Under the pieces are notes generated by a model, which saw only the letters and a program-made list of their open reading frames with translations, was not told the DNA's origin and did not search any database. A DNA stretch of 35,048 bases from positions 1 to 35,048 of the forward strand of contig CAMYOL010000069.1 in the NCBI GenBank assembly GCA_947260005.1, in the 5' to 3' direction. Of the stretch, positions 3,558 to 5,981 are shown piece by piece. Made by a program: the position numbers and the translations under genes. Position 1 is the first letter of the stretch. Every line of letters begins with the position of its first letter. Source of the DNA: an uncultured Ectothiorhodospiraceae bacterium (GTDB lineage Bacteria; Pseudomonadota; Gammaproteobacteria; UBA6429; Thiohalophilaceae).

Positions 3558-3914
3558 TGGTGGGCCCGGAAGGACTTGAACCTTCGACCAATGGATTCAC
3601 GTAGTCTCGATATTTCTATCCAGCGCGGACTATCTCATCACCCACAACACTAAAACATTTTTAGTTTGCTAGGGTGCGGGAGGCTTAAACCTGTTATTAA
3701 GGACACTTAGACAAATAAAAATATCTGCTAGTCCCCAGGTAGTCTCTGCACCTTCCGAAGGTGTACCTTCGGCTTGGCTCAGGATTGCCATCAGCTCGAT
3801 AAATAAACTCGACTGTTAAGGTTTCCCTGAATTCATCCCGTTCATCTTATTGCTTTCACAATAAGCGCACCATTTTGATGAGTCCACTGCTCTAACCAAC
3901 TGAGCTACAGGCCC
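3558..3914 (-). tRNA. tRNA-Ile2 (anticodon CAU), interrupted by a group I intron
   Basis: On the minus strand the 5' exon (3914-3878) and 3' exon (3597-3558) join into a complete tRNA. The acceptor pair is GGGCCTG/CGGGCCC, the D arm is GCTC/GAGC, the anticodon stem is GTGGA/TCCAT with loop CTCATAA, the variable loop is TGGTC, the T arm is GAAGG-TTCAAGT-CCTTC, the discriminator is A, and CCA is encoded. The anticodon is CAT. The anticodon-loop context and the TGGTC variable loop resemble bacterial tRNA-Ile2, whose C34 is changed to lysidine by TilS to read AUA, rather than elongator or initiator tRNA-Met. The exons are split directly after anticodon position 36. From memory, a tRNA-Ile(CAU) gene close to rpoD is also seen in other gammaproteobacteria, which supports a native locus. 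Confidence 0.93.
3598..3877 (-). ncRNA. Group I self-splicing intron (IC3-like) in tRNA-Ile(CAU)
   Basis: This 280-nt insert follows U36 of the tRNA and ends in G, the two bases group I splicing requires at its junctions. A GTG at intron positions 8-10 can pair with the exon CAU as a three-base P1 with a U-G wobble. P2 is CTTATTG/CAATAAG. The core has a TTCAGGGAAACC segment and AATCCTGAGCCAAGC (P4-P6), a CCGAAGG/CCTTCGG hairpin, then GGTGCAGAGACTA. Its GACTA (134-138) pairs with TAGTC (246-250) as P7. A GATA-GAAA-TATC hairpin forms a P9-like element near the end. These are hallmarks of the small IC3 introns of cyanobacterial tRNA-Leu and Azoarcus tRNA-Ile. No homing-endonuclease ORF is present. 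Confidence 0.92.
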
Positions 3915-3936
3915 TGTAAAGAAGCAATTATAAGTC

Positions 3937-4058
3937 ATTCCCGTGGAGGCGGGAATCTATTATTTTAATTTATGGATTCCCCTCTCCAGGGGAAAAGTGC
4001 CCCGCGGGTAAAGTACTCAACGGGTATGACGGCGCAGGGATTCCTCTCTTCAGGGGAA
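3937..4058. repeat. Three degenerate copies of a short hairpin repeat
   Basis: Three small stem-loops recur in the gap between the tRNA and rpoD: ATTCCCG/CGGGAAT (3937-3956), TTCCCCT/AGGGGAA (3977-3994) and TTCCTCT/AGGGGAA (4041-4058). The stems keep pairing while their sequence drifts. They resemble the widespread ATTCCCGC...GCGGGAAT intergenic palindromes of proteobacteria. I see no gene in the gap 3915-4140. Confidence 0.55.
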
Positions 4059-4140
4059 TGACAGAGTGTGGATTTCCGCCCATCGTGCCCCGCAATGAAA
4101 TAATCAGAGGGTATACGCGGGAATGGCGGTGTGCCCAAAT

Positions 4141-4187: not shown

Positions 4188-5981
4188 TTAGGTATTTTTC
4201 TGTTCCATATCCAGGAAGCTACGTAAGGTCTCCGAACGGGTCGGGTGACGCAGTTTACGCAAGGCCTTGGCTTCAATCTGACGAATTCGCTCACGCGTTA
4301 CATCAAATTGTTTGCCGACTTCTTCCAAGGTATGGTCCGTGTTCATGTCGATACCAAAACGCATACGCAGCACTTTTGCTTCACGAGCGGTCAAACCACC
4401 GAGTACATCCTGGGTGGCTTCATGCAGTCCAGATGACGTAGCTGAATCCACCGGTGAAGTCGCATTACCATCTTCAATGAAATCACCGAGGTGCGAATCT
4501 TCGTCATCGCCAATCGGGGTTTCGGTTGAGATAGGCTCTTTAGCGATCTTCAGGACTTTACGGATTTTGTCTTCCGGCATTTCCATACGTTCCGCCAGTT
4601 CTTCCGGCGTCGCTTCACGTCCCATTTCCTGTAACATCTGACGAGAAATACGATTTAACTTATTAATCGTTTCAATCATGTGCACAGGAATACGAATGGT
4701 GCGTGCTTGATCGGCTATCGAACGGGTAATCGCCTGACGAATCCACCAGGTTGCATAAGTCGAGAACTTGTAACCACGACGGTATTCGAATTTATCTACT
4801 GCTTTCATCAAACCGATGTTGCCTTCCTGAATCAAGTCGAGGAATTGCAGGCCACGATTGGTGTATTTTTTCGCGATTGATATAACTAAACGTAGGTTAG
4901 CCTCGACCATTTCTTTCTTGGCGCGACGAGCCTTGGCTTCACCAATCGAAACCTTACGATTAATTCCTTTTAAATCCGAAATGCGCAGACCGCATTCTTT
5001 TTCAAGGTTAATCAACTTGTTTTGTGCCTTGGTGATCTCGTCTTCGTTATCTTTTAAAACTTGCGCATAAGTTTCACCTGAATTGAGATGACCTTGTAAC
5101 CAGGCAGCATCGGTTTCGTTTTCAGGGAAAGTTGTGACAAATTGTTTACGAGGCATGTGCGCCTTATTCACACAGATGTTCATAATCACACGTTCATGTT
5201 GACGAATGCGACCCACCAATAAACGCATGCGATGACGCAAGGTGTCGACCATACGCGGGGTAAGTTTTAACTGCATAAACTCGGCGATGATCTCAGTACG
5301 GATCTTGTCAGATTTTTTATCGGTGTGACCGTGCTTGGTTAAAACGCTGACAAACTTTTTATGCAGCTTACGCATTTTGTTGAAGCGCGCCTTGGCTTCT
5401 TCCGGATCCGGGCCGGTATCAACAGGCTCATCTTCCTCTTCCGCGGTGCCGGCATTCTTTGCCGCATTGGCGGCCGCCACTTCTTCGGGAGTCGGGATGT
5501 TATCCGGCGCATTCGGATCGATAAATGCGGTTAATATATCAGTCAGTTTGGCTTCACCAGATTCGATCAGGTCATAGGTCTCGATGACTTTGGCGATGGT
5601 GTCGGGATACATAGCCAATGAAGACAGCATGCCATTCAGGCCATCTTCGATACGCTTGGCAATTTCAATCTCGCCTTCGCGTGTTAACAGTTCGACTGCG
5701 CCCATTTCACGCATATACATGCGAACAGGGTCGGTCGTGCGACCGAATTCACTGTCCATATTGACCAGGGCAGCAGCGGCTTCTTCCGCGGCATCTTCAT
5801 CCACGGTATCTGTGATCACGTTGTCAGTCTCAACTGGGGCATTTTCGTGTACGACGATCCCCATGTCGTTGATCATGGCAACAATGTCTTCGATCTGCTC
5901 AGGATCGACAATATCATTGGGCAGGTGGTCATTGACCTCGGCATAGGTTAAATAACCTTGCTCTTTACCCTTAGCAATCAA
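4188..5981 (-). CDS. rpoD: Primary sigma factor RpoD (sigma-70)
   Basis: This is the housekeeping sigma subunit that directs RNA polymerase to -10/-35 promoters. The protein has 597 residues. It opens with part of region 1.1 ([17 protein letters not shown]), then region 1.2 ([15 protein letters not shown]), an acidic non-conserved insert, region 2 ([21 protein letters not shown] and [12 protein letters not shown], which melt and contact the -10), region 3, and a region 4 helix-turn-helix ending in [18 protein letters not shown]. Enteric RpoD begins about 13 residues earlier. Here the reading frame is closed by a TAA nine codons upstream, and the only start codon between is TTG at 5979-5981. 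A GGAG lies ten bases before it. dnaG ends 132 bases upstream in the same direction. Confidence 0.96.

Follow-up and report, generated by a model that had tools for sequence, protein, structure and literature searches.

A tRNA-Ile(CAU) gene split by a putative IA-like group I intron next to rpoD in a gammaproteobacterium, with a patchy distribution among relatives

The tRNA-Ile(CAU) gene analysed here belongs to an uncultured Ectothiorhodospiraceae bacterium and is interrupted in its anticodon loop by a 280-nt insert; the whole stretch of DNA that carries it, 35,048 nt in length, is referred to as the window. The locus raises the questions of what the insert is, to which lineage it belongs, and how it came to occupy this site. 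A very probable reading is that an Ile2 gene is split by an ORF-less group I ribozyme of an armed, IA-like rather than IC3 lineage, which is rpoD-linked in the family, has often been gained and lost, and has in part moved horizontally.

A search of the window against Rfam with cmscan returned one above-threshold match, RF00028 (Intron_gpI), at 3889-3606 on the minus strand, with a score of 77.2 bits, above the cut-off of 50, an E value of 3.9e-18, and the model covered over its full length; at E ≤1 other families matched in the window below threshold only. The initial annotation, made from the letters and a list of open reading frames, had proposed a 280-nt group I intron splitting tRNA-Ile(CAU) and a check against the Rfam group I model, and the covariance score agrees with that proposal, the coordinates of which are exact. 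The whole split gene occupies 3558-3914 on the minus strand (357 nt; Table 1), with the intron directly 3' of U36 and G as its last base. ARAGORN detects zero tRNAs in the window and, with default settings, zero in the unspliced gene as well, and its intron option makes a wrong call on the unspliced gene (tRNA-Gln). When joined, the exons fold into a canonical cloverleaf of 77 nt, in agreement with the earlier claim that the tRNA halves fold once the insert is removed; its anticodon is CAT, and ARAGORN labels it Met. Two further features had been annotated correctly: no endonuclease ORF is present inside the window intron, 49 codons being the longest stop-free frame, and the neighbouring gene, which carries Pfam sigma-70 domains, is rpoD. 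It shares the strand of the tRNA and ends 273 nt upstream of it; further beyond lie dnaG and tsaD. The gene rpoD adjoins the tRNA in many relatives too and is found nearby in both beta and gamma loci. By eye, the spacer between the tRNA and rpoD (window 3930-4130) contains short GC-rich palindromes such as ATTCCCGCCTCCACGGGAAT, resembling small repeat elements.

Table 1. Coordinates of the split tRNA gene, its neighbour and the intron elements in the window, and of two interrupted phage tRNA genes, with the basis of each assignment.
Feature	Position	Strand	Basis
tRNA-Ile(CAU) 5' exon, acceptor 5' strand to U36	3878..3914	-	ARAGORN cloverleaf on joined exons
Group I intron, 280 nt, longest stop-free frame 49 codons	3598..3877	-	RF00028 77.2 bits and structure counts
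tRNA-Ile(CAU) 3' exon, A37 to CCA	3558..3597	-	exon joining
rpoD, upstream neighbour, same strand as tRNA	4188..5981	-	Pfam sigma-70 domains
Internal guide sequence GUG; P1 with exon C34-A35-U36 (3878-3880), U.G at 5' splice site	3868..3870	-	invariant in 46 introns
P2 hairpin, GAAA loop	3846..3865	-	8/8 pairs changed on both sides
P3 5' strand, partner 3677-3683	3834..3840	-	5/7 pairs invariant, 1 with both-side change
P4-P5 domain; P4 = 3825-3830 with 3779-3784	3779..3830	-	all cells pair; 1/8 pairs varies, on one side
P6a hairpin	3755..3772	-	6/7 pairs with both-side change
P7 5' strand, G-binding site by homology, partner 3628-3632	3740..3744	-	invariant in 46 introns
Arm between P7 and P3: P7.1 CCUG/CAGG, then P7.1a, mostly RGRRC/GYYCU, with UURAUNAC	3690..3739	-	in 46/46 introns
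P3 3' strand	3677..3683	-	structure counts
P8	3639..3676	-	2/5 pairs with both-side change; 97.4% of cells paired
P7 3' strand	3628..3632	-	structure counts
P9 hairpin, GAAA loop	3606..3623	-	5/6 pairs with both-side change; 94.5% of cells paired
P9.0 3' strand including terminal G, partner 3624-3627	3598..3601	-	all cells paired; 1/4 pairs with both-side change
Klebsiella phage Muenster interrupted CAU tRNA	L289 1483-1793 = record 302826-303136		RF00028 and exon reading
OU509535 interrupted CAU tRNA	L290 729-1029		RF00028 and ARAGORN on joined exons

The fold was assessed on homologous introns. Extraction gave 79 distinct stretches, of which 8 start at duplicated 5' halves. Among them 46 window-type introns including that of the window, selected on the 5' end and on a length of ≤300 nt (L060, L066 and L120 excluded), were aligned, and a structure of 70 pairs in 14 helices was drawn for the window sequence. 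Across the 46 introns 99.2% of 3219 cells are paired, including those of the P3-P8 and P4-P6 core of group I introns, and 26 of the 70 pairs have changes on both sides. None of 500 shuffles equalled the observed value by any of the five measures used, and pairing falls to 31-44% once the partners are displaced by 1 to 3 columns. Both-side changes occur in P2, P3, P6a, P7.1a, P8, P9.0 and P9, and at nearly every pair of P2, P6a and P9; P1, P5, P7 and P7.1 are invariant in the 46 introns and hence give no covariation signal. Since homologous introns retain the fold with covariation, the window intron is not a chance structure. Its own copy pairs in all designated helices except at one P3 pair (U-C, where 44 of 46 introns have U-G), and the elements named in the initial annotation, namely the position after U36, the terminal G, P1 (CAU/GUG), P2, P7 and the GAAA-capped P9, are all present.

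The tRNAs with a CAU anticodon are initiator Met, elongator Met or Ile2. A pattern search of 58 related genomes, allowing ≤2 mismatches, revealed two CAU types, ..CACTCATAATG and ..GACTCATAATC, the first of which we take to be Met. The window gene is of the ..GACTCATAATC type, as are the uninterrupted rpoD-linked copies in relatives. An identity as tRNA-Met, elongator or initiator, was considered for the window gene and is ruled out by this family comparison; judged by its sequence type, the tRNA is Ile2, distinct from both Met tRNAs.

The initial annotation had also named a second, uninterrupted tRNA-Ile(CAU) as a finding that would weigh against splicing. Such a gene was searched for in the organism's draft genome and not found; the pattern used, which misses divergent tRNAs, detected no uninterrupted elongator-type CAU tRNA, whether Ile2 or Met. 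The assembly (G000) consists of 81 contigs, is rated 99.5% complete and gives 25 tRNA matches at E ≤1, 3 of them below cut-off. No recognisable elongator tRNA-Met was found in it, and because this tRNA is missing as well as an uninterrupted Ile2, the tRNA set of the draft is probably incomplete. Its one CAU tRNA called by ARAGORN, among the fetched tRNA loci, is initiator-like by eye. In the set of 58 genomes, and within the reach of a pattern that missed the divergent tRNAs of G008 and G022, no uninterrupted Ile2-type match was found in any of the 12 intron-bearing family genomes (G000, G001, G006, G010, G013, G017, G018, G021, G024, G025, G034 and G035), two of which, G017 and G021, are each rated 100% complete.

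These observations bear on the alternative that the gene is a tRNA pseudogene holding a degenerate intron and that an intact tRNA-Ile2 elsewhere was missed by the draft assembly. The absence of several tRNAs from the assembly, a recognisable elongator Met among them, is in keeping with this alternative, and G036 provides a real case of an intact CAU tRNA beside an intron remnant. Both exons of the window gene are intact, however, every designated helix but for the one P3 pair is formed, and the 0 of 12 intron-bearing relatives with an uninterrupted Ile2-type match, within the pattern's reach, include the two genomes rated fully complete; a pseudogene is thus very improbable.

Given an intact split gene, the window intron is predicted to be self-splicing, a prediction in which the structure is backed by covariation and the chemistry is taken from the intron family. 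In the proposed mechanism the anticodon loop of pre-tRNA-Ile2(CAU), broken after U36 by the ORF-less ribozyme, would be aligned by pairing of the GUG guide with the anticodon CAU to form P1; a guanosine bound in P7 would serve for the cut after U36, and the terminal G, placed through P9.0, would allow U36 to be joined to A37. By analogy with group I chemistry, these steps would be two transesterifications with exogenous guanosine. Lysidine made by TilS lets the Ile2 tRNA read AUA, and tilS is present in the organism's genome above cut-off. With no other Ile2 gene detected, TilS should be able to form the lysidine only after splicing, and splicing would be required for AUA decoding provided that the interrupted gene is the sole Ile2 copy. 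That splicing takes place ahead of both lysidine and t6A modification may reasonably be expected.

The subtype proposed in the initial annotation, IC3, is not supported. The window intron carries a 50-nt arm between P7 and P3; across the 46 introns, P7.1 of this arm is invariant and two P7.1a pairs have changed on both sides. The Azoarcus ribozyme has no such arm, nor do the tRNA-Leu, tRNA-Arg and Azoarcus-type tRNA-Ile introns examined. The presence of P7.1 with P7.1a or P7.2 between P7 and P3 is an IA-type trait, and a passage of PMC4498298 describes the T4 td IA2 ribozyme as resembling two IC3 ribozymes (Azo and Syn) save for an extension between P7 and P3. Trees of the core, computed with the arm cut out, place the no-arm rows in one clade, of 18 rows with support 100/99 in the first tree and of 17 rows with 100/98 in the second, in which Ile2_odd_L066, phage_prot_L412 and other_noP71_L230 were left out and six left edges trimmed. 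Both trees omit the tRNA-Leu rows L042, L044, L191 and L193 and the Staphylococcus row L413, missed by the motif search, and both printed long-branch warnings. The window core lies outside this clade, which contains the Azoarcus-type, tRNA-Leu and tRNA-Arg introns. A clade of the window type with the Azoarcus type is rejected (AU 0.039), whereas a single clade of all bacterial armed introns is compatible with the data (AU 0.255). With T4 td, nrdB and a Staphylococcus phage intron added, the alternative to their grouping with the armed side obtains AU 0.335, two of these three reference rows being incomplete. IC3 membership was therefore rejected on the presence of the arm between P7 and P3 and on a core that does not group with known IC3 introns. 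IA-like appears to be a fair label for the window intron, resting mainly on the place of the arm, and the subgroup is left unnamed.

Alternatively, the intron might be an IC3 intron of the Azoarcus type, inherited vertically from an early proteobacterial ancestor, to which an extra arm was added in the Gammaproteobacteria. The two types do share the tRNA, the site, the GUG guide and the GAAA-capped P2 and P9, and rpoD is nearby at beta as well as gamma loci. Nevertheless, in one alignment the Azoarcus intron is only 54% identical to that of the window, compared with 76% and 83% for two other gamma-type introns (Rhizobacter and Variovorax reach 57-58% and Azonexus 63%), and the arm-less core trees separate the types (100/98), with a single clade of all tRNA-Ile2 introns rejected (AU 0.011). 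A similar arm is moreover seen in many phage introns, in a scan whose pattern was taken from the window type. Descent from IC3 with an added arm is accordingly unlikely, and two structurally different intron lineages, the armed gamma type and the Azoarcus IC3 type, occupy one tRNA-Ile site. Comparable arms occur in tRNA-Ile introns of Variovorax, Rhizobacter, a Comamonadaceae MAG and Azonexus and, judged by position, at the same place in four tRNA-Thr(TGT) introns (L170, L171, L173 and L177) and one tRNA-Lys(CTT) intron (L036) of Gammaproteobacteria; the strict arm pattern CCTG..ACAGG has no match in Thr, Lys, Leu, Arg or tmRNA introns.

The occurrence of the intron was surveyed in 370 genomes of the class, requested at a completeness of 90 or more, in which host genes were read by eye from the flanks because trial splicing with ARAGORN gave noisy names. 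A group I match (E ≤0.001) is present in 54 genomes (68 matches), above cut-off in 40, and a tRNA-Ile(CAU) intron at the window's site in 23. A pattern scan of named genomes returned at least 118 stretches, and the 80 listed include many interrupted genes of Gamma- and Betaproteobacteria together with 37 script-flagged uninterrupted and further unflagged uninterrupted tRNAs. Of 40 genomes of the window's family, 32 gave an RpoD match, and 30 loci were retrieved. Twelve of these have an interrupted rpoD-linked tRNA, including G035, whose contig ends inside the intron, and 14 an uninterrupted one; in three (G023, G033 and G036) the fetched stretch stops before any tRNA, and in one (G015) the fetched rpoD flank contains no tRNA, an uninterrupted Ile2-type match lying on a different contig. 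G006 has an interrupted tRNA but no RpoD match. With 23 of 370 class genomes and 12 of 26 scorable rpoD-linked family copies, the earlier view that such an intron is uncommon in a gammaproteobacterium does not hold. In G008 and G022 (L264 and L265), counted among the 14, the rpoD-linked CAU tRNA is divergent and uninterrupted (GGGCCTGTAGCACAACGG..).

The empty sites of relatives are precise and have the same rpoD-linked location. Intron presence changes 10 times across an RpoD tree of 26 genomes, compared with a mean of 8.8 for shuffled labels, 461 of 500 of which were as low. When the exons of interrupted genes were compared with those of uninterrupted relatives in 11 pairs, four (G034/G026, G406/G026, G034/G405 and G025/G009) showed 0 mismatches, two had a single mismatch, another two had 2, and the last three had 6, 8 and 10; the exons of the window's genus differ at 8 and 10 positions from those of G019, the nearest empty relative of the window on the RpoD tree (8 against the window itself). 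Intron distances correlate with RpoD distances (Mantel 0.63 for 11 family members, 0.52 for 42 and 0.59 for 50, with 0 of 2000 permutations as high), and much of the descent therefore looks vertical. A blastn search of plasmids and E. coli genomes with the intron gave no match at E ≤1e-5.

The positive correlation, together with precise empty sites that in some cases have identical exons, would also follow if presence varied by repeated loss alone from one vertically inherited insertion, with no horizontal transfer. Such a history is doubtful in view of the finding that the family introns do not form one clade when tested with 19 introns of other families (AU 0.014, and 0.005 after removal of four odd named rows). 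In addition, G037 and G276, which belong to one genus of another family, are 0.027 apart in RpoD and 0.215 apart in their introns, that of G037 being nearest to the window's genus, although the split of this pair tested alone is not significant (AU 0.214); two same-family pairs (0.205 and 0.166) are likewise not significant, which is in keeping with loss alone. Contamination was considered as the source of the window-like intron of G037 and rejected, as rpoD on the same contig groups with the congener and away from the window's family. We read the history of the intron as vertical descent with frequent loss and some horizontal transfer.

Several remnants and unusual insertions were observed in the course of the survey. 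At L046 (G036, 200-680) an intact CAU tRNA is followed by the 3' part of an intron and a 3' exon, a remnant below the Rfam cut-off that suggests replacement of an interrupted gene. At L050 (G037:C149) a partial second copy, also below the cut-off, retains the intron's 3' portion and the 3' exon, the intact L032 being on another contig. In ten loci of Betaproteobacteria (L051, L061, L062, L074, L081, L113, L116, L133, L156 and L167) the tRNA-Ile 5' half, ending in CTCAT, is repeated once or twice some 150-200 bp upstream of the interrupted gene, with short repeats such as ACACACCGCTTACACACC in the spacers; ACACACCGCTTACACACC-type repeats are perhaps scars of integration sites. By eye, L045, L049, L243, L245, L246, L252 and L255 are group I introns in the T loop of tmRNA, all below the Rfam cut-off, and a CAU tRNA at L253 (G080:C213) is seemingly interrupted elsewhere, after U33.

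Phage records were compared with the whole interrupted gene. There are 38 matching records, 26 of them of Acinetobacter phages, and most appear to match in the tRNA half only; among the 15 records listed, those of Klebsiella jumbo phages align from the tRNA into the intron. The introns of phage Muenster and of OU509535 score 104.1 and 89.9 bits with Rfam, measure 231 and 228 nt, and have nearly identical cores in different tRNAs. Joined, the Muenster exons give a CAU tRNA whose acceptor reads GGCCCCT and whose D loop is long, and ARAGORN makes no call on it; OU509535 has a different CAU tRNA, recognised by ARAGORN. The stretch of Muenster is matched at 99.7-100% by KP13-7, RCIP0023 and phiKp_21, and four annotated Klebsiella phage records show no annotated feature under the match. 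An annotated HNH gene starts ∼235 nt after the Muenster tRNA, past a tRNA-Asn, and in OU509535 the 3' exon is overlapped by an open frame that is HNH-like by eye. Scanning viral contigs with a pattern based on the window's core returned at least 120 stretches; most of the 80 listed show no tRNA. Among these 80, six are tRNA-linked by eye, with the arm in L322, L336 and L349 and without it in L303, L331 and L334, and the script's tRNA test flagged none.

The Klebsiella jumbo phages thus resemble the window in having a CAU tRNA into which an armed intron is inserted at the identical site, but these are phage genes, and their introns fall outside the gamma type in the core tree. A direct phage donor for the gamma-type intron is accordingly not supported, the Klebsiella phage introns not being nested with the gamma type. 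It is a tentative possibility that a phage-type (IA-like) lineage colonised bacterial tRNA-Ile(CAU) at the site of the unrelated Azoarcus lineage and spread, ORF-less, by way of phages carrying interrupted CAU tRNAs and of free-standing HNH nucleases close to them. According to a passage of a 2014 review (PMC3984707), all phage introns observed until then were in protein genes; the Klebsiella phage tRNA introns would, on the strength of their sequences, be counter-examples to that statement.

The Azoarcus tRNA-Ile intron is inserted after U36, as are those of the related beta loci. It shares with the window intron the tRNA, the GUG guide, the GAAA loops on P2 and P9 and the lack of an ORF; it differs in length (197 nt printed, with the 8 first bases left out), in having no arm, in sequence, and in belonging to a separate clade of the core tree. 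Group I introns in tRNA-Ile have already been published for Azoarcus (PMC3984707 and PMC8890501, in part), and a passage of PMC8450103 reports for Acidovorax and Burkholderia a tRNA-Ile2 with a group I intron that is missed by tRNAscan-SE, which is the same tRNA as that of the window, but in Betaproteobacteria. Interrupted tRNA genes are in print for the Beggiatoaceae (PMC4853749, in part); such published genes of Gammaproteobacteria involve tRNAs other than that of the window, and the intron type is left undefined in the part of the source consulted. The tRNA-Leu(UAA) introns of Gammaproteobacteria are also group I introns of the anticodon loop, but in another tRNA and at another position, and the arm is absent from those examined. 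T4 td (IA2), annotated as 'group 1A' in the T4 sequence record, shares the extra domain between P7 and P3 with the window intron (PMC4498298, in part), but td lies in a protein gene and contains an ORF, whereas the window intron is ORF-less and lies in a tRNA gene, and by eye td has two hairpins, described as an IA2 feature in part of PMC4227781, compared with one stacked arm in the window. No earlier description of an armed intron in a tRNA gene was found in mostly freely readable literature, including passages of PMC3984707, PMC4498298 and PMC4227781. As far as could be seen, the novelty lies in the phage-like armed subtype in tRNA-Ile(CAU), its patchiness and its phage cousins, the tRNA-Ile group I intron itself being known.

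The introns described here constitute a natural set, with 12 carriers and 14 non-carriers in one family and 23 of 370 in the class, in which a small ribozyme resides in an apparently single-copy tRNA gene and is accompanied by precise empty sites. This set bears on whether ORF-less bacterial introns move between species, for which the part of the 2014 review consulted finds scant evidence while noting phage-like introns in Bacillus (PMC3984707), and the Klebsiella phage cases bear on whether phages carry tRNA introns. With precise empty sites at hand, ORF-less movement and phage tRNA introns therefore become testable points, in a setting where two structurally distinct intron lineages share one insertion site in tRNA-Ile(CAU).
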